Shown here: in pieces, positions 3,785-19,704 of the stretch
Layout of the letters: every line of letters begins with the position of its first letter
Position numbering within the stretch: the first letter of the stretch is position 1
NCBI GenBank assembly: GCA_036000965.1
Contig: DASYUT010000196.1
Location: forward strand, 1 to 42,560
DNA: 42,560 nt
Direction: 5' to 3'
From: Actinomycetes bacterium
Lineage (GTDB): Bacteria > Actinomycetota > CALGFH01
Notes under the pieces: model-generated
What the model was told of the DNA's origin: nothing
Databases searched by the model: none
The model's input: the letters and a program-made list of their open reading frames with translations, nothing else
Translations under genes and position numbers: made by a program

Positions 3785-4786
3785 GAGGAAGGCGATCGCC
3801 GTCGGGTAGCGGTACTCGATGGCCATGTGGGTGGCGTCGAACAGCTCGAAGACATGCTCCACGCCCAGGGCGTCCAGCTCGGCGGCGAACGCGGCCGCGC
3901 CGAGGTCGAGGTAGTACTCGTCCCGCTTGCCGGCGTCGATCCAGATGCCGCGCATCGAGCGCAGCGCGTCCCTGTGCTTGGGGGCCATCCGGACCGGGTC
4001 GAGATCGAGCCACCGCTGCCAGACCTCGTCGCGCAGCCGCCCCGTGGCGGTGTCGAAGGGCAGGGTCACCGTGCCGTCCGGCTCGGCCGAGTAGCAGGCC
4101 GCCATGCACCAGGCGTTGAGCAGCTCCTCGTCGTGTTCGACGCTGAACGCCGGCCGGGAGCGGAAGTCGGCCCAGAAGAGCTCGTAGGAGCCGTCGTACC
4201 GGTCGCGGAGGGTCCTGGCCACGACCCGGAAGTCGGGCAGGTAGCAGCTTTCGAACAGGGCGTCGCCGGCGTGGCTGGCCAGGGCGCCGAACACGTCGGG
4301 ACGGAGCATCGGCACGACCATGGCGCCATAGCCGCCGCTCGACTTGCCGGCCAGGCCGCGGTGGTCCCGGCTCGCGAGCGTCAGGTAGCGCTCGTCGACG
4401 AACCCCACCACCTCGTCGCAGAGGTAGTCGAGGTAGCGGCCGGTGCCAGGCGAGTTCAGGTACTGGCTGCCGCCCAGCGAGGTCCAGGCGTCCACCAGCA
4501 CGACGATGCAGGATGGCGTGCCACCGCCCGCGAACAGCTCGTCGACCCGCTCGGGAACGTTGGGCCGGAACGGCGAGCGGTTCCACCACATGTCGACCTG
4601 GCCGGTGAGCCCTTGGATGACGTAGACGGTCGGGTAGCGGCGGTCCGGGTCGTCGCCGTACCCGGGCGGCAGGTAGACCCAGACAGGCCGCTCGTACGGG
4701 TCGCCGAGCGGGTTGCCCCGAAGGACCCGGCTCGAGATCGTGTGCTGCTCGAACCGCCCTCGAGCGTCCACGTTCCATGGGCGCAT
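3764..4786 (-). CDS. Putative alpha/beta-hydrolase esterase
   Basis: A 340-residue protein of the putative esterase family (esterase D / enterochelin-esterase-like alpha/beta hydrolases). The nucleophile elbow GKSSGGYGAM is near residue 155, the likely acid is the Asp in WIDAGKRDEYY, and the likely catalytic His is in FDATHMAIEYRYP near the C terminus. An N-terminal RPVWVYLPPGYG strand is typical of the family. No signal peptide is seen. The ATG is supported by AAGGAAGGG nine bases upstream. It stands alone, convergent with the phospholipase D-like gene. Substrate cannot be inferred; S-formylglutathione hydrolase is possible but not supported by a specific motif. Confidence 0.85.
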   Translation of the reverse strand: MRPWNVDARGRFEQHTISSRVLRGNPLGDPYERPVWVYLPPGYGDDPDRRYPTVYVIQGLTGQVDMWWNRSPFRPNVPERVDELFAGGGTPSCIVVLVDAWTSLGGSQYLNSPGTGRYLDYLCDEVVGFVDERYLTLASRDHRGLAGKSSGGYGAMVVPMLRPDVFGALASHAGDALFESCYLPDFRVVARTLRDRYDGSYELFWADFRSRPAFSVEHDEELLNAWCMAACYSAEPDGTVTLPFDTATGRLRDEVWQRWLDLDPVRMAPKHRDALRSMRGIWIDAGKRDEYYLDLGAAAFAAELDALGVEHVFELFDATHMAIEYRYPTAIAFLARHLGR

Positions 4787-4810
4787 GCTCGACCCTTCCT
4801 TCCGTGGTTG

Positions 4811-4848
4811 CTTGGTCCTGCCTCATCTGGACTTGGTCCTGCCTCATT
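4811..4848. repeat. 21-bp tandem duplication upstream of the esterase gene
   Basis: cttggtcctgcctcat starts at 4811 and again at 4832 in the esterase 5' region (period 21). It lies 25-62 bases from the start codon and could affect the promoter or leader. Confidence 0.85.
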
Positions 4849-4872
4849 TCATCACGCCGGTGACGAGTGTGA

Positions 4873-5073
4873 TCCCGCTCGCCCGCTCGAGCACTTCCGC
4901 TTCTGGCCGAGGCCCAGGCGCGTGGCTACGAACGGGCCCAGCTGTGGACCCATGCCGACAACGCACGCGCCCACCGGCTCTACGAGGGCCGGGGCTTCCG
5001 GCGCTCGGGCCGCGAGAAGGACGACGGCCTCGGCGAGCGGATCGTCCACTACCAGCGGCCCCTGCCGTCCTGA
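4873..5073 (+). pseudogene. C-terminal remnant of a GNAT N-acetyltransferase
   Basis: From about 4894 this frame encodes LLAEAQARGYERAQLWTHA, then NARAHRLYEGRGFRRSGRE, ending YQRPLPS. This is the standard acetyl-CoA-binding C-terminal part of GNAT enzymes: a helix, the AQLWT strand, and N..A..LYE..GF. About 60 codons remain of a usual 150-170. Two in-frame stops (4861 and 4870) and no start codon lie just upstream, so the N-terminal half is missing. The stop (5071) is convergent with the DUF4173-type gene 20 bases away. Substrate cannot be known from this part. Confidence 0.75.
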
Positions 5074-5093
5074 GCGCGCCAGGCCCGGGCCGG

Positions 5094-6624
5094 TTACGGG
5101 CAGAAGGCGGCGAGGCGCTGCCTGGCCCGCGCGTGGCCGAGGTTCCAGGCTGGCCAGCCGGTCCAGCGCGGGGCGGGGCGCTCCTGGCAGAGTCGCGCGG
5201 TCACGGCGGCGCGCGCGGCCGGGTCCAGGGACGGCACCCGGTCGACCAGCGTGGGGACCGCGTCGTCGGACAGGCCGGCGAGATAGGCTTGGTCGAGGCG
5301 CTCAGCTGTGTCGAAGCGTCCAGCCGGGTCGAGCGAGCCTGCCTCCGCCGCAGGGGCACGGGCGAGGTTGTGGCCGTACCACCACGGCCTCCGGATTGAC
5401 CACGTTGAGGGCGAGCAGCAGGGCCAGCCCGACTGCGGCGGCGGCGCCCAGGAACCAGGCCCGGCGGCTGCCGAGGCCGGCCAGGGAGCAGCCCAGCAGC
5501 AGGAACACCACGCCGACCCAGTAGCTGAACAGCTCGCTGTACAGGCGCAGCATCGTCAGGCCGAAGGTGCGCTCGTAGAGGTCGAGGCGGCGGATGGCGA
5601 CGACCACGACGACCAGGGTGAGCGCGACCGCGACCTCGGCCAGGACGGCGAACGCCCGCCGCCGCCCAGGGTGCTCGAGGTCGGTGAGCGCGCGGAGCGC
5701 GAGCAGGACGCCCAGGGTGATGACGGCCACGGCCAGGAGCTGGAAGAAACCAGACCGGGCGTACTCGGCGTAGGTCAGCCCGGCGGTGGCAAGGACGTGG
5801 CGCCCGCCCTTGGAGAGCGCCACCACCTGGGCGGCCGCGAACACGGCGAACAGTACGGCCAGGCCGGCAAGCACGATCATCGCCTCGATGCTGCCGAGCA
5901 TCCGGCGGCCCGGCCCGAGGGGGCCGACCGGCACGACCGAGGTGACCCGGAGCAGGGAGGCAGCCCCCCAGGCCCCGACGGCGAGCGCGGCGGCGTGGCC
6001 GGCCAGGCTGGCCAGGTCCACGTCGACCCGGAAGAAGCTCGCGAAGACCGCGTCGGCCGAGGCGAGCAGGAAGCCGAGCAGGAGCAGCAGCGGGACCGCG
6101 AGCAGCACGCCGCCGACCACGCGCAGCACCGCCTCGGCGCGCCCGGCCTCGCCGAGGTGCCGGCGGGCGGCCCGCCTGGCCGGCGCGGCCGCGAACGCCA
6201 GCGCGGCCATCGCGTGGAGCACGGCGTGCACCGCCCGCATGACCACCCGCGGGACGGTCAAGTCGAGCACGTCCCCGCCCCGGGCCAGCGACGCCCCGAG
6301 CGCGAGCAGGCCCAGGGCGGCCAGCAGGTCCAGCGGCAGTAGCCAGGCACTGGTGCGTATGGCCAGGAAGGCGCCGAACACGGGCGCGACCGCCGCAACC
6401 AGCCTGGCCTGCCAGGTCGCGAGCCGGCCGCAGGCCAGGAGGGCCACCGCGGCCACGAGCACCAGCAGCGCCCCGGCAAGCCCCAGCGCCCCTGACCGCA
6501 GCGCGAGGTCGGTGGCCACGGCGGTCGCGGCCACCCCGGCGACGACCCAGCCGTCGGCCGGGTCGAGCACGGTCGGGACGGTCCCGGGGACGGCCAGCGT
6601 CTCCTCGCCCGCCGCCTGGCTCAT
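5094..6624 (-). CDS. DUF4173/DUF4153-type membrane protein, frameshifted near the 3' end
   Basis: A polytopic membrane protein with about 11 hydrophobic segments and family-like motifs (LTYAEYARSGFFQLLAV; LRLYSELFSYWVGVVF; NVVNPEAVVVR). The uninterrupted frame stops at 5302 after an odd Pro/Cys-rich tail. Removing one base at about 5372-5375 restores a family-like tail: HNLARAPAAEAGSLD, then DQAYLAGLSDDAVPTLVD, then WPAWNLGHARARQRLAAFCP, with TAA at 5094-5096. So there is a +1 frameshift at about codon 417, either a sequencing error or a recent mutation. The ATG follows AGGAGGGAAGCC and overlaps the stop of an upstream kinase-like remnant. Function is unknown. Related genes are often beside two-component systems. 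Confidence 0.75.
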
Positions 6625-14025: not shown

Positions 14026-14730
14026 TCAGCTTCTGGTCACTGGGGGGGCCGTCCCGGGGTCCGCCAGCGGCCTGGCCGCGGTCTGGCGGACCAGGTCCAC
14101 GGCTGCCCGGCGCTGCTCGTGGAAGGACAGGATCTGCAGCTCGGTGGAGAGGTCGACCTTGCGCAGCGACACGCCCGGGGGGACCTGCACGTGGGCGGGG
14201 GCGAAGTTCAGGATCGAGGCCACGCCGGCGGCGACCAGCCGGTCGCACACCTCCTGGGCGGAGGAGGCCGTGGTGGAGACCACCCCGATGGCGACCTGTT
14301 CCTCCTTGACGATGCGGTCGAGGTCGTCGATGTGCTCGACGGTGACGTCGCCGACCCGCTCGCCGACCTTGGCCGGGTCGGCGTCGAGGAGGGCGACGAT
14401 GCGGAACCCGCGCTCCCTGAAGCCGTGGTAGTTGGCCAGGGCGTGGCCCAGGTTGCCGACCCCGACGATGGCCACCGCCCAGTCCTGCTCGAGCCCCAGC
14501 TCGCGCCGGACCTGGTAGATGAGGTACTCCACGTCGTAGCCGACGCCCCGGGTGCCGTACGACCCGAGGTAGGAGAGGTCCTTGCGCACCTTGGCGGAGT
14601 TGACCCCGGCGGCCTCCGCGAGCTGCTCGGAGGAGACCGTATGCGTTCCCCGCTCGGCCATGTCGACCAGGCAGCGCAGGTAGATGGGGAGTCGGGCTAC
14701 GGTGGCTTCCGGGATGCTGCGGTCTCGCAC
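14026..14730 (-). CDS. rex: Redox-sensing transcriptional repressor Rex
   Basis: A 234-residue Rex regulator. The N-terminal winged helix (about 1-75) contains SIPEATVARLPIYLRCL and GVNSAKVRKDLSYLGSYG. The Rossmann domain has IVGVGNLGHAL at 89-99, which senses the NADH/NAD+ ratio, and the C-terminal helix swaps between subunits. High NADH releases Rex from DNA. GTG 14730 is preferred because AGGGGAGA lies upstream and the protein then begins like other actinobacterial Rex; TTG 14757 is an alternative. It is the first gene of the operon with the precorrin-2 dehydrogenase, hemA, hemC and cobA/hemD. Its promoter overlaps a Rex-type site, so autoregulation is likely. The same arrangement (rex-hemACD) is known in Streptomyces. 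Confidence 0.96.
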   Translation of the reverse strand: MRDRSIPEATVARLPIYLRCLVDMAERGTHTVSSEQLAEAAGVNSAKVRKDLSYLGSYGTRGVGYDVEYLIYQVRRELGLEQDWAVAIVGVGNLGHALANYHGFRERGFRIVALLDADPAKVGERVGDVTVEHIDDLDRIVKEEQVAIGVVSTTASSAQEVCDRLVAAGVASILNFAPAHVQVPPGVSLRKVDLSTELQILSFHEQRRAAVDLVRQTAARPLADPGTAPPVTRS

Positions 14731-14793
14731 GATGCTCAGGTCTCCCCTGCGGTCCAACGGCTGGCGGGGCAGGCGTCCCGCGTCTGTCCTTCG

Positions 14794-15067: not shown

Positions 15068-15774
15068 GGCCCCGCCCTCACCGGGCCTGCCCGCGCCGGG
15101 CCCGGGCGCGCCGGCGCGGAGGCGCGCCGGAACCCCACGTACATGACCGTGGCCCCCAGGGCGAGGCCGGTCGCCAGCCTGTTGCTCCGGTCCAGGAAGG
15201 CGAACACCCCGCCGCTTGCGGCAAGCAGCACGCCGAGCGCGATGAGCAGGTTGCCCTCGAACCGGGCCCGGAGATGGCGCTGGTGGCGCAGCCCGTACCC
15301 GCTGGCCACGGCGCCGCCCACCACCACGGCGGTGCCGACCACGTTGCCGAGCACGGCCAGGGCACGCACGCCGACGGGCAGGAACCGCCTGCCCTCGGGC
15401 ACAACCTGGCCGGCCAGGTCGGCCGCGCCGACCTTGGCCATGGCCACCAGCGCCACGCTGGCCAGGCTGAACACCACCAGGCCGGCGAGGTAGGCGCGGC
15501 GGGTGAGCGGGCGCCTGGCCAGCAGGAGCACCGTGCCGAGGCCAAGCCAGGGCACGTTCAGGACCGCGCCGAACAGGTAGTAGAGCTTGAACCCGGCCGG
15601 CGTCCACTGGCTGGCCGTCCCGACCGTCAGCGCCAGCGAGGCGACCGCGAACATCGACAGCGAGGCACCCCAGGCGAGCTGGTAGGGTCTGCGCCGGCGG
15701 CGGTACTGGCCCAGCACCGCGACCGCGAACGCGGCCGACGCGGCCGTGGCGATGGACGGGAGTAGCCAGTGCAC
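15064..15774 (-). CDS. Polytopic membrane protein of unknown function
   Basis: A 236-residue protein with about seven hydrophobic segments, for example at 5-22, 33-52, 65-85, 95-112, 135-158 and 172-190, with Arg-rich loops such as GQYRRRRRPY. The C terminus is a Pro/Ala/Arg-rich tail (ARPGPARAGPVRAGP). GTG start at 15774. It is coupled to the glutaredoxin-like gene by a GTGA overlap, which suggests a shared redox or envelope role, but no family is recognised. It is divergent from the isomerase-like gene, with 165 bases between them. Confidence 0.8.
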   Translation of the reverse strand: MHWLLPSIATAASAAFAVAVLGQYRRRRRPYQLAWGASLSMFAVASLALTVGTASQWTPAGFKLYYLFGAVLNVPWLGLGTVLLLARRPLTRRAYLAGLVVFSLASVALVAMAKVGAADLAGQVVPEGRRFLPVGVRALAVLGNVVGTAVVVGGAVASGYGLRHQRHLRARFEGNLLIALGVLLAASGGVFAFLDRSNRLATGLALGATVMYVGFRRASAPARPGPARAGPVRAGP

Positions 15775-15939
15775 GGGGAAAGTCTAGTCCCGAAGCCTGC
15801 TGTTCACCTGCGCGGCACCGCGGGTCGGCCGGTGTCGCCGGGCAGTTGTTACCATCGTGGTGGGACGCCGACGTCCCTGCCCGTCCTGGGCGCCCGGCCA
15901 GGCCCCCAGGACCGACTCTTCCTCGACCGAGGAGCGCTC

Positions 15940-16758
15940 GTGCCCCAGCACCCTCCCGTGCTCGCCGCCACCGGACCGTTCTACATGCACTCGCTCGAGG
16001 AGACCTTCGAGACGATCGCCGAGGCCGGGTTCGACGGCGCCGAGCTGATGATCACCCAGGACCGCCTGAGCCAGGACCCGCACCGCATGGCGGCCGTCGC
16101 GGCCCGGTACGACCTGCCCGTCCGCGCTGTCCACGGGCCCTTCCTGCTCGCCACCTGGCTGGTCTTCGGCACCGACCCCAAGGGCAAGATCGAGCGCTGC
16201 GTCGCGTTCGCTGAGGCGGCCCAGGTGTCGACGATCGTGATCCACCCGCCCTACCGCTGGCAGCTCCGGTACACGGACTGGCTGGTCGAGCGCATCGTCG
16301 AGGTGCGCGAGGCGACCGGGGTCACGATCGCGGTGGAGAACATGTTCCCGGTCTGGGTGAACGGCCGGCCCTTGCCGTTCCAGAGCGGCATCGAGCTGGC
16401 CGAGCTCGGGCGCTACCCCTGGGTGACCCTGGACACGAGCCACCTGGCCGTGGCCGGCATCGACCTCCTGGAGGCCCAGGCCGAGCTCGGCGACCGGGTC
16501 GTGCACGTGCACGCCTCCAACAACGCCGGGCGCGGGCGCGACACCCACGCCCCGCTCGACCAGGGTGTCCTGCCCGTGCCCGAGTTCCTGGAGCGGCTCG
16601 GGCAGACCGGCTTCGGCGGCGCGGTCACCCTCGAGCTCGACGTGCGGCCGTGGACCGAGGACCGGGCCGGCCTGATCGCCGTGCTCCGCGACAACGTCGA
16701 GACCGCCCGCAAGCACCTGGCCGCCGGAGCCGAGCGGGCCGAGGCCAGCGACCCCTGA
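15940..16758 (+). CDS. Xylose-isomerase-like TIM-barrel protein
   Basis: A 272-residue sugar phosphate isomerase/epimerase-type protein (AP-endonuclease-2 TIM barrel). Barrel strands with likely metal ligands include AGFDGAELMIT, VRAVHGPFLLA, STIVIHPPYRW, VTIAVENMFPV (Glu ligand), WVTLDTSHLAVAG (Asp/His), VVHVHASNNAG and AVTLELDVRPW (Glu). The start is GTG 15940, with GAGGAG six bases upstream; earlier codons in frame lack family residues. Substrate is unknown. It precedes the 29-residue membrane peptide and the sigma-like fusion on the same strand, with 185 bases between. Confidence 0.85.
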   Translation: MPQHPPVLAATGPFYMHSLEETFETIAEAGFDGAELMITQDRLSQDPHRMAAVAARYDLPVRAVHGPFLLATWLVFGTDPKGKIERCVAFAEAAQVSTIVIHPPYRWQLRYTDWLVERIVEVREATGVTIAVENMFPVWVNGRPLPFQSGIELAELGRYPWVTLDTSHLAVAGIDLLEAQAELGDRVVHVHASNNAGRGRDTHAPLDQGVLPVPEFLERLGQTGFGGAVTLELDVRPWTEDRAGLIAVLRDNVETARKHLAAGAERAEASDP

Positions 16759-16943: not shown

Positions 16944-17033
16944 ATGCGCACAGGCACCGCCGTCTTGGTCGCGGTACTGCTGGTGGTGATCGTCGCCGCC
17001 GCTGGCGTCCAGCTCTTGGTGCTGCAACGATGA
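16944..17033 (+). CDS. 29-residue single-span membrane peptide
   Basis: ATG 16944 is preceded by AGGGAGCGAGCAAC and encodes MRTGTAVLVAVLLVVIVAAA followed by GVQLLVLQR: one membrane helix with a short charged end. The stop overlaps the start of the sigma-like fusion gene (ATGA at 17030-17033), so the two are probably coupled. A role as a membrane partner of that protein is inference. It could also be only a leader ORF that controls translation of the next gene. Confidence 0.6.
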   Translation: MRTGTAVLVAVLLVVIVAAAGVQLLVLQR

Positions 17034-18427
17034 CGCCAAACCGGGCACCGGCCCCGCCGACCGGCGAGATCGAGGTCGGGACGATCACCTGCGGCTGCCG
17101 CAACGGCAACCTGACCGAGGCCATCGCGGTCCAGCGCAGGCTCGTCGAGCAGGCCATGGCCCGCGACCCGGAGGCGATCGCCGAGCTGTACGACCGCTAC
17201 GTCGACGACGTGTACGGCTACCTGGTCGCCTGGACGCGCGACCCAGAGGTCGCGGAGGAGCTGACCGAGCGGGTCTTCCGCGACGTGATGACCTGGCTGC
17301 CGGTGGTTGCCCGGGGCGAGGGCGAGCTGGGCGCGTGGCTGATCGCGATGGCGCGCGACGCGGTCGCGCACGGGCGTGCCGCCCGGCCCCACGGCGACGA
17401 CGAGAGCGTGGTCGGCGACGTCGCCCTGCTCGACGACCCGGAGCGGGAGGTCGTCATCCTCCGCCTCCTGCTCGGTCACTCCCTGGTCCACACCGCCCAC
17501 CTGACCGGCTACCGGCCCCGGGTGACCAAGGCGCTCCAGCTGCTGGCCTGCTCCACGCTGTGGGAGCGCAGCCAGGAGTCGCCCGCGCTCCGGACGGCCA
17601 GGGGCGAAGCGTCGTCCGAGAACGGCGCGTCAACGCCCGAGCCGTACTTCCTGGACCCGGCCCAGAGCGACCGGCGGCGGGCCGACGAGTTCGAGCGCCG
17701 TCTGAACCGGTGGAGCGCCGACCTCACCGACGACGACCAGAACATGGCCAACGCGCTGGCTGTCGCCTCCTCCCTGCGCGAGGCCGCGGCGACCGTGGTG
17801 GTTCCTCCCGACCCGAGCTTCGTGTACCGCGTGCGCGAGGAGTTGGTCGCCGACGCGGTCGTCACGGAGACCGAAGGCCCGGCCGAGCTGCCCATGCGGC
17901 GCGCCTCCCGCTTGCGGCGCTCGTCCCGGGCCAAGGGCGCCCGGCTGTCCGGGCTCGTCGCGCTCCTGTCCCACCGGGTCGTGCTCATGACGCTGGTCGG
18001 GGTGGTCATGGCCGCCGGCGCCGGCTTCGTGATCGTCAACGCCCTGGCCGGCTCGTCCTCGAAGTGCGGCACCGCCGGGTGCCTGGGCACGACCACGACC
18101 GGCGCCGGGGGGCCGGCCGTGGTCGCCGGCACCTCCCCGCCCGAGACCACCGCGGGTGAGCCGACCACGACCGGGCCGGGCGGCACCACGACCAGCGCCA
18201 CCACGCCAGGCCGGCTCCCGCCCCAGACCAGCAGCAGGGGTGGGGTGATCGCGCCGCCGACCACGGGCACCCCGGGCACCACCGTGAGGCCGCCGATCAC
18301 CACCCGGCCGCGCCCGCCGACCACGCCGCGCCCGCCGACCACGCCGCCGCCGACCACGCCGCCGCCCACGACCGCGCCGCCCACGACCGCGCCGCCCACG
18401 ACGACGACCGCGCCGCTGCTCCCGTAG
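17030..18427 (+). CDS. Membrane-anchored ECF sigma-like / RsbN-like fusion protein
   Basis: A 465-residue protein in four parts. Residues 40-120 resemble sigma region 2 (AIAELYDRYVDDVYGYLVAW, AEELTERVFRDV, GAWLIAMARDAVAHGR). Residues 136-177 resemble region 4 (DPEREVVILRLLLGHSL, then a helix-turn-helix ending VTKALQLLA). Residues 215-290 (RRADEFERRLNRWSADL, then PPDPSFVYRVREELVADA) resemble the cytosolic part of RsbN/DUF5667 anti-sigma proteins. One membrane helix lies at about 313-340 (RVVLMTLVGVVMAAGAGFVI), followed by an extracellular Thr/Pro tail of PPTT repeats. Streptomyces has separate bldN and rsbN genes at this distance from rex. A fused sigma/anti-sigma is my inference; the protein might be only a regulator with a degenerate sigma fold. 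Confidence 0.75.
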   Translation: MTPNRAPAPPTGEIEVGTITCGCRNGNLTEAIAVQRRLVEQAMARDPEAIAELYDRYVDDVYGYLVAWTRDPEVAEELTERVFRDVMTWLPVVARGEGELGAWLIAMARDAVAHGRAARPHGDDESVVGDVALLDDPEREVVILRLLLGHSLVHTAHLTGYRPRVTKALQLLACSTLWERSQESPALRTARGEASSENGASTPEPYFLDPAQSDRRRADEFERRLNRWSADLTDDDQNMANALAVASSLREAAATVVVPPDPSFVYRVREELVADAVVTETEGPAELPMRRASRLRRSSRAKGARLSGLVALLSHRVVLMTLVGVVMAAGAGFVIVNALAGSSSKCGTAGCLGTTTTGAGGPAVVAGTSPPETTAGEPTTTGPGGTTTSATTPGRLPPQTSSRGGVIAPPTTGTPGTTVRPPITTRPRPPTTPRPPTTPPPTTPPPTTAPPTTAPPTTTTAPLLP

Positions 18428-18457: not shown

Positions 18458-18549
18458 AGGGGTCCCCGCGTGACTACCGGGCCAGGTCGAGTACCACTCA
18501 GCTGGGGATACCGACCCTGGAACGTCCAGGTAGTCGCGCGGGGACCCCT
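18458..18549. terminator. 21-bp inverted repeat between convergent genes
   Basis: The left arm 18458-18478 pairs with the right arm 18529-18549 over 21 positions, with a single U-G wobble and a 50-base loop. It fills the space between the stop of the sigma-like fusion gene (18427) and that of the acyltransferase gene (18556), and is symmetrical, so it could end transcription from both sides. The long loop also leaves open a small inverted-repeat element. No poly-T tract is present. Confidence 0.55.
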
Positions 18550-18555
18550 TACCCC

Positions 18556-19704
18556 TTACAGGAACACGCCGCCGCGGGTGACCAGGTTCTTGTGGACCGT
18601 CTGCTGGATGGTGTCGCGGACCTGGTCGGTCAGGTCGAACACGGCCATCGGGTCCAGCACCGCGTCGGGCCCGTAGCCGCTCGTCTCGATCGGCGGGCAG
18701 AACTCGATCAGCCACTTGGAGGGGAGCGGCACCAGCCCGAGCGGGCCGAGCAGCGGGAAGGTCGGGGTGACCGGCACGTACGGCACGCCGAGGAGGCGGG
18801 CCAGCCGGCGCAGGTTGGCCAGCATGGGGTAGATCTCCTCGCTGCCGATCACCGCCACCGGCACGATCGGCGTGCCCGTGCGCAGCGCCACCTCGACGAA
18901 GCCGCCGCGTCCGAAGCGCTGTAGGCGGTACCGGTCGCGGAACGGCTTGCCCAGCCCCTTGTAGCCCTCCGGCCAGACGCCGACCAGCTCCCCGGCCGCG
19001 AGCAGGCGCTCGGCGTCCTCGGCGCAGGCCAGGGTGTTTCCGGACTTGCGCGCCAGCGGGGCCACCACCGGCAGGGTGAAGGCGAGGTCGGCCGCGAGCA
19101 TCCGCAGCGGCCGGTGGGCCGGGTGCTCGTCGAGCAGGGCGAGGGCCACCATCAGCGAGTCGAGCGGGAGCGTGCCGGCGTGGTTGGCCACCACCAGGGC
19201 GGGTCCCGTGTCCGGCACGTGCTCGAGCCCGCGCACCTGCACGCGAAACCAGTGGCGGTAGAGCGGGCGGAGCAGCGGGGCGAGCACGTGCTTGACCAGG
19301 TCCGGGTCGTACCCGAACTCGTCGATCGGGTAGTCGCCGGTCAGCCGGCGCCGGAGGAACCCGAGCGCGTCCTCGGCCCGGTCCAGGAGCGGGGCCAGCG
19401 CCTCGGCGACCGCCTGGCCGTCGCCGGTCGCCTGGCCGTCGCCGGTCGCCTGGCCGTCGCCGCCGTCGGTTGCGCCACGGCCCTCGGCCGTCAGGTCCAC
19501 CCCAACCGCCCCGCCGGGCCCGGCACCCCCCCGGGCGGCCGCCCCGCCGGGCCCGGTGCCTGCCCGGGCGGCCGCCTCGCGGAGCTGGCGCTCGTGGCGG
19601 GCGCACAGGCCGGTCGGACCGGCCGGGTTGCGGCAGGGCTGGCCCTTGGCGGTCAGCGCGCGGCAGCGGGCCCGCCCACCGCTCCCATCCGCGTGCGCGG
19701 TCAC
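18556..19704 (-). CDS. Lysophospholipid acyltransferase-like protein with N-terminal Cys/His motif
   Basis: A 382-residue PlsC-superfamily acyltransferase, expected to acylate a lysophospholipid or glycerolipid at the membrane. The domain starts near residue 145. Motif I is ANHAGTLPLDSLM (His and Asp), motif III is GVWPEGYKGLGK, and PIVPVAVIGSEEIYP follows. The N-terminal 40 residues carry Cys14, Cys24, Cys34 and His37 (GQPCRNPAGPTGLCARH), a zinc-knuckle-like motif that is not part of the acyltransferase fold. Between them lies a Gly/Ala linker with a GDGQAT repeat. Start is GTG 19704, overlapping the epimerase stop. Acceptor and acyl donor cannot be told. Confidence 0.87.
   Translation of the reverse strand: MTAHADGSGGRARCRALTAKGQPCRNPAGPTGLCARHERQLREAAARAGTGPGGAAARGGAGPGGAVGVDLTAEGRGATDGGDGQATGDGQATGDGQAVAEALAPLLDRAEDALGFLRRRLTGDYPIDEFGYDPDLVKHVLAPLLRPLYRHWFRVQVRGLEHVPDTGPALVVANHAGTLPLDSLMVALALLDEHPAHRPLRMLAADLAFTLPVVAPLARKSGNTLACAEDAERLLAAGELVGVWPEGYKGLGKPFRDRYRLQRFGRGGFVEVALRTGTPIVPVAVIGSEEIYPMLANLRRLARLLGVPYVPVTPTFPLLGPLGLVPLPSKWLIEFCPPIETSGYGPDAVLDPMAVFDLTDQVRDTIQQTVHKNLVTRGGVFL
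19415..19465 (-). repeat. 18-bp tandem repeat in the acyltransferase linker
   Basis: tggccgtcgccggtcgcc occurs at 19415-19432 and 19433-19450, with a partial third copy from 19451. On the minus strand it codes GDGQAT units in the linker between the Cys/His motif and the acyltransferase domain. Confidence 0.9.

Follow-up and report, generated by a model that had tools for sequence, protein, structure and literature searches.

The fused gene and its surroundings

The window analysed here, a stretch of 42,560 nucleotides, comes from a little-known, uncultured class of actinobacteria. Its genes are arranged in the order HemA, Rex, glutaredoxin, membrane protein, TIM barrel, microprotein, fusion and acyltransferase, and the same order is found in G001 and G002, which together with the window genome (G000) are the three genomes sampled of the class. 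The fusion gene (17030..18427, forward strand) has an ATG start at 17030 and a stop codon ending at 18427, and encodes a protein of 465 amino acids with orthologues in G001 and G002. Upstream of it lie rex (14026..14757, reverse strand), a syntenic marker of the bldN locus, and a likewise syntenic TIM-barrel gene (AP_endonuc_2; 15769..16758, forward strand). On the other side, an acyltransferase gene (18556..19704, reverse strand) is a syntenic marker downstream of bldN-rsbN.

From its N-terminus the protein carries a C-x-C-R-x-G motif (17090..17107), a sigma2 domain (residues ~36-117; 17135..17380), a sigma4 domain (residues ~134-181; 17429..17572), an RsbN-type (class III) anti-sigma domain (residues 211-278; 17660..17863), a membrane span (residues ~316-341; 17975..18052) and a predicted extracellular tail rich in Thr and Pro (18056..18424), all on the forward strand. 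The span is visible as a hydrophobic stretch in the translation and as a long helix in the AF2 model. Just outside the membrane, at 18065-18082 (residues 346-351), there is a pair of cysteines that reads KCGTAGC in the window and ECDGRPC in G001; the G002 copy is without it.

The preliminary description had read a sigma and an anti-sigma factor out of a single 465-codon frame, and the related genomes bear this out. Continuous orthologues, homologous to the window fusion over its length, are present in G001 (450 aa with a TTG start, 48% identity) and G002 (514 aa, 46% identity), and the fusion is uninterrupted in all three genomes. With a profile of the three fused proteins, which gave 434-460 bits on the fused copies, no further full-length fusion was found among 396 Actinomycetota genomes; the next-best match reached 91 bits and covered the sigma part only. 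A scan of the GTDB contig collection, whose query was two short peptide patterns that diverged cases could escape, turned up the contig of G001 itself and unrelated sigmas. Across the three genomes sampled the fusion occurs throughout the class, and it was seen nowhere else. An assembly or reading error that had run two genes together by a missed stop and start can be set aside as having a negligible chance of being true, because three separate assemblies carry the same continuous frame, with differing linkers. A long open frame by itself is weak evidence at 74% GC; it is homology and the codon pattern that carry the case and rule out a chance frame. When selection was judged from codon-position identities between G001 and G002, position 2 (0.80) was more conserved than position 3 (0.63; p 1e-7), and the protein is therefore considered to be under purifying selection. 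The fusion evolves faster than Rex and the TIM-barrel gene.

Directly before the fusion lies a gene for a 29-aa single-span microprotein (16944..17033, forward strand). Its TGA overlaps the ATG of the fusion (ATGA), which makes translational coupling of the two likely. The microprotein belongs to a conserved family of 28-30 aa with a single span and the pattern MRxGTA...QL..R (window 16944-17033; L118-L147), and no Pfam family covers its sequence. With a profile, 46 of 296 Actinomycetota genomes were found to carry a single copy each (E up to 0.05), and most of the matches that were fetched adjoin the TIM-barrel, SAM hydrolase, acyltransferase or Rex genes of this locus, with or without bldN. 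Since it also occurs at the locus where bldN is absent, we rejected the idea that it belongs to the fusion system. The stretch separating the fusion from the acyltransferase gene contains a long, near-perfect palindrome (18458-18552; DNA fold z -6.3). It is matched at about 8 further places in the genome with 73-96% identity, and is a dispersed palindromic repeat that may be a small mobile element.

Origin from the bldN-rsbN pair

In Streptomyces, the sigma/anti-sigma pair BldN-RsbN initiates aerial development. That the fusion stands at the bldN/rsbN locus, as had been proposed, is upheld by both synteny and phylogeny. It occupies the place of the BldN family between rex and the acyltransferase gene. 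In three Streptomyces-like genomes (G024, G106 and G127) the series is Rex, glutaredoxin, BldN, RsbN with DUF5667 and acyltransferase, in an orientation matching the window, and two-gene versions of bldN-rsbN are also present in G011, G026 and G084. In a maximum-likelihood tree the fused trio forms one clade (support 100/100) nested in the bldN group (85/82). Its stem is very long, at 3.3 changes per site, which would be expected if constraints had changed. The position of such a long branch is uncertain, but the synteny agrees with it. As judged from sequence, the fusion gene is this lineage's bldN-rsbN pair joined into one membrane protein. It scores 47.6 bits against the BldN family model TIGR02952, far from the curated cut-off of 206 bits; the best unfused relative in the window genome, with 118 bits, also falls under this value, and the cut-off is therefore a strict one.

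All three genomes of the class additionally contain an unfused BldN-type sigma and a DUF5667 anti-sigma factor adjoining a cofD-like gene (in the window genome G000 C67, L062 4088-5988, with the sigma at 4088-4831 and its DUF5667 partner at 4819-5988; also L063 and L064). This sigma passes the Pfam cut-offs for sigma2 and sigma4, and its regions 2 and 4 are intact. The pair was considered as the direct ancestor of the fusion and rejected, as the two fall into different groups of the tree. The window genome encodes a further DUF5667 protein, with a stronger match (58 bits), at G000:C285:3264-3518.

A sigma fold beside an RsbN-type domain

The fold of the sigma half was recognized by several approaches. 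TIGR02952 matches sigma2 over residues 38-113 (E 1.7e-12), while in Pfam the window copy remains under the 24-bit cut-off of Sigma70_r2 (20.4 bits) and its sigma4 goes undetected. A phmmer comparison with the BldN of PDB 6dxo gave E 5.4e-14 over residues 38-177, and since this alignment extends that far, sigma4 is included in the BldN match. The helices of both domains are predicted confidently by AF2, and the top Foldseek match is 6dxo_A, the BldN chain of the crystal with RsbN (E 9.6e-5); the matches ranked below it are further sigmas bound to anti-sigma factors. The structural likeness to sigma2 and sigma4 presumed earlier is thus present, and the fusion has in phmmer, AF2 and Foldseek the two-domain fold of a functional ECF sigma.

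The residues tell a different story. When 31 unfused relatives were compared with the three fused copies, a set of core positions (A49, Y54, A75, F83, W103, A108, R109, L134, R145, A156 and Q170) was found to be retained, and so were A75, E/D77, L78, T79 and F83 of region 2.2. Lost from the fused copies are F93 and W95 of region 2.3 as well as N110 and D114, now D and H/Q/E. In our alignment the latter two correspond to N80 and N84 of E. coli sigmaE, which we take to act at the -10 element. The recognition helix of sigma4 has lost G164 (now R), Y171 and R172. R172, the equivalent of sigmaE R176, is present in 31/31 unfused relatives and replaced by L/A/A in the fused copies; K167 (sigmaE R171) is K/M/L, with the Lys surviving in the window copy only; and the position of sigmaE S172 is A/E/E, a Glu in two of them. 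The set of -10 and -35 recognition residues, the equivalents of sigmaE N80, N84, R171 and R176, is thus not found in the fusion. In sigmaE and SigW, the R171, S172 and R176 positions contact bases of the -35 DNA (PMC6713349). Among 24 other ECF-type sigmas of the window genome, 22 have an Arg or Lys at the R176 position. Other ECFs do vary at single recognition positions, and DNA may be read through other residues; moreover, with only three fused sequences, two of them close relatives, a loss in all three may amount to two independent data points.

In two fused copies the linker joining sigma2 to sigma4 has become shorter. Between G000 and G001, which are two genera, the body of sigma4 is the best-conserved part (62% amino acid identity, against 54% for sigma2 and 50% for the anti-sigma domain), and therefore it seems to serve a job other than reading DNA; for the same reason the sigma half does not look like a case of simple decay. 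New residues have also appeared. C21 and C23 of the N-terminal motif, which is invariant in the three fused proteins and missing from unfused relatives, and C174, gained on what was once the DNA-recognition helix, are invariant, and the fused proteins have no other cysteine in their cytoplasmic part. On the helix neighbouring the recognition helix, H150, H154 and H157 (H-x3-H-x2-H) are likewise new and invariant. C174, H150 and H154 are absent from the unfused relatives throughout, and H157 is absent from all but one. With three sequences, such invariance may reflect inheritance rather than function. That the sigma half is a metal or redox sensor, whose state would set the pairing with the fused RsbN domain, is a quite unlikely reading of these residues.

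The segment following the sigma part had been described as RsbN/DUF5667-like, and of this the first half stands. Pfam has no match in the segment. The N-terminal domains of 21 unfused RsbN-type proteins were combined into a profile without fused rows, and the window copy scored 34.6 bits with this profile (E 6.6e-9, among all open reading frames of the loci). Rebuilt on trimmed domains, again without fused rows, it gave 26.4 bits for the window, 19.4 for G001 and 6.9 for G002; none of 2000 shuffles reached the score for the first two, and 7 of 2000 did so for G002, which is weak for that copy. AF2 predicts three helices at 210-281 and the membrane helix beyond, the arrangement of a class III anti-sigma factor with its three-helix cytoplasmic domain before a membrane span, again weak for G002. 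Searched by itself in Foldseek, the 68-aa domain had no match, nor was RsbN in the PDB recovered with a profile limited to the three fused domains; the proposed link to RsbN rests on the profiles of unfused RsbN domains. A score from a comparison with fused rows in both alignments is circular and was kept out of the evidence. The segment corresponds to the cytoplasmic anti-sigma domain of RsbN, a protein in which DUF5667 proper lies outside the membrane. Pfam finds DUF5667 in all unfused partners scanned and does not find it in the fusion, including its extracellular tail. In the crystal, sigma4 is gripped by helices 1 and 2 of the anti-sigma domain, and regions 2.1/2.2 by helix 3 (PMC7406223). 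The AF2 model does not dock the anti-sigma domain reliably onto the sigma part.

Candidate modes of action and known relatives

With the fold and inhibitor docking surfaces retained and the promoter contacts lost, the sigma half would fit a sigma mimic better than a sigma. We tentatively favour the reading that bldN and rsbN were joined and that the sigma half is now a sigma mimic, held at the membrane and paired with the anti-sigma domain of the same protein, which probably directs no transcription. At rest, the RsbN-type domain would hold its own tethered mimic at the membrane. We infer that this pairing could be loosened by a signal arriving at the tail, at the membrane span or at the microprotein, upon which the freed anti-sigma domain would capture a genuine BldN-type sigma such as the unfused paralogue; alternatively, the freed mimic would capture the anti-sigma factor of that sigma. 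The unfused sigma/DUF5667 pair offers candidate partners for such an exchange. Such a mechanism would amount to partner switching within a single chain, resembling that of the sigma-like domain of PhyR in alphaproteobacteria, a precedent for a DNA-free sigma mimic (PMC4598750).

The preliminary description had instead supposed that the sigma stays tethered until it is cut by proteolysis. A working sigma held by a fused membrane anti-sigma factor and freed by regulated proteolysis, a mode put forward for ECF52 and demonstrated for IutY, would have the layout of ECF52 (sigma, anti-sigma domain, membrane span and Pro-rich tail) and of the proteolysis-activated IutY, and region 2.2, the contact to core polymerase, is retained. 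However, that proposal presumes a working sigma, and the promoter-reading positions of regions 2.3/2.4 and 4.2, near-invariant in the 31 relatives, are gone in all three copies; Pfam places sigma2 under its cut-off and misses sigma4 in the window copy. Since the third helix of RsbN also binds region 2.1/2.2, the retention of region 2.2 does not favour a releasable sigma, and we regard this explanation as unlikely. The same region, kept while DNA contacts were lost, could instead let the protein bind core RNA polymerase as a membrane platform without promoter recognition, lowering the free polymerase or competing with other sigmas. The anti-sigma domain uses that very surface, though, and being tethered would normally mask it, which makes a platform very unlikely. 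Equally improbable is a decaying, functionless bldN-rsbN remnant whose role was taken over by the unfused paralogue near cofD. The loss of the DNA-contact residues and of DUF5667, the long stem, the faster evolution relative to Rex and the TIM-barrel gene and the presence of the paralogue pair would all agree with it. Against it are three divergent copies free of stops and frameshifts, the better-kept second codon position, the sharply conserved sigma4 body, the shared new cysteines and histidines, and the start overlap with the preceding microprotein gene that the window retains.

Fusions of sigma and anti-sigma factors with a membrane span are known or predicted in ECF36, ECF48, ECF52, ECF53 and IutY (ECF243) (PMC8999054; PMC5826349), so the locus is not an undescribed system in the general sense first suggested; what does remain of that claim is that no description of an RsbN/class III fusion with a DNA-blind sigma, nor any paper on a BldN-RsbN fusion, was found in the open-licence literature. 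The fusion differs from the known ones in the class of its anti-sigma domain, its loss of DNA reading and its bldN-rsbN origin. With the Streptomyces pair (PDB 6dxo) it shares the locus, the sigma2/sigma4 fold, the three-helix anti-sigma domain of RsbN type and a single membrane span. However, it is one polypeptide instead of two, has lost the promoter-reading residues and the DUF5667 domain, and has gained the N-terminal CxC motif and the sigma4 histidines. The actinobacterial ECF52 (SCO4117), ECF53 and ECF48 also combine a sigma, an anti-sigma domain and a membrane span in one chain, ECF52 with a Pro-rich tail outside (PMC5826349). Their anti-sigma domain is of the zinc-finger (ZAS) type, for which Pfam gave no match in the fusion; the literature describes SCO4117 as an active regulator and proposes a promoter motif for it, and ECF52 contains a carbohydrate-binding domain as well. 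IutY of Pseudomonas putida likewise joins a sigma to a membrane anti-sigma factor, but it serves cell-surface signalling in iron starvation, and proteolysis releases a working sigma (PMC8999054). The analogy we favour is PhyR, whose sigma-like domain has no sigma activity of its own but participates in partner switching. The comparison is confined to the mode of action, as PhyR is controlled by a receiver domain, for which Pfam has no match in the fusion, and binds NepR (class II), whereas the fusion is membrane-bound with a class III anti-sigma domain of its own.

Should metal or redox state indeed be read by the sigma half, a DNA-blind sigma fold would have become a signalling domain at a locus beside rex. 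The fusion would also offer structural studies of class III anti-sigma factors a naturally occurring sigma/anti-sigma complex with its ratio fixed at 1:1, and it may be the second instance, PhyR being the first, in which a sigma fold serves as a decoy. A lineage in which the pair is fused and the sigma half disarmed shows how a sigma/anti-sigma pair can be repurposed.
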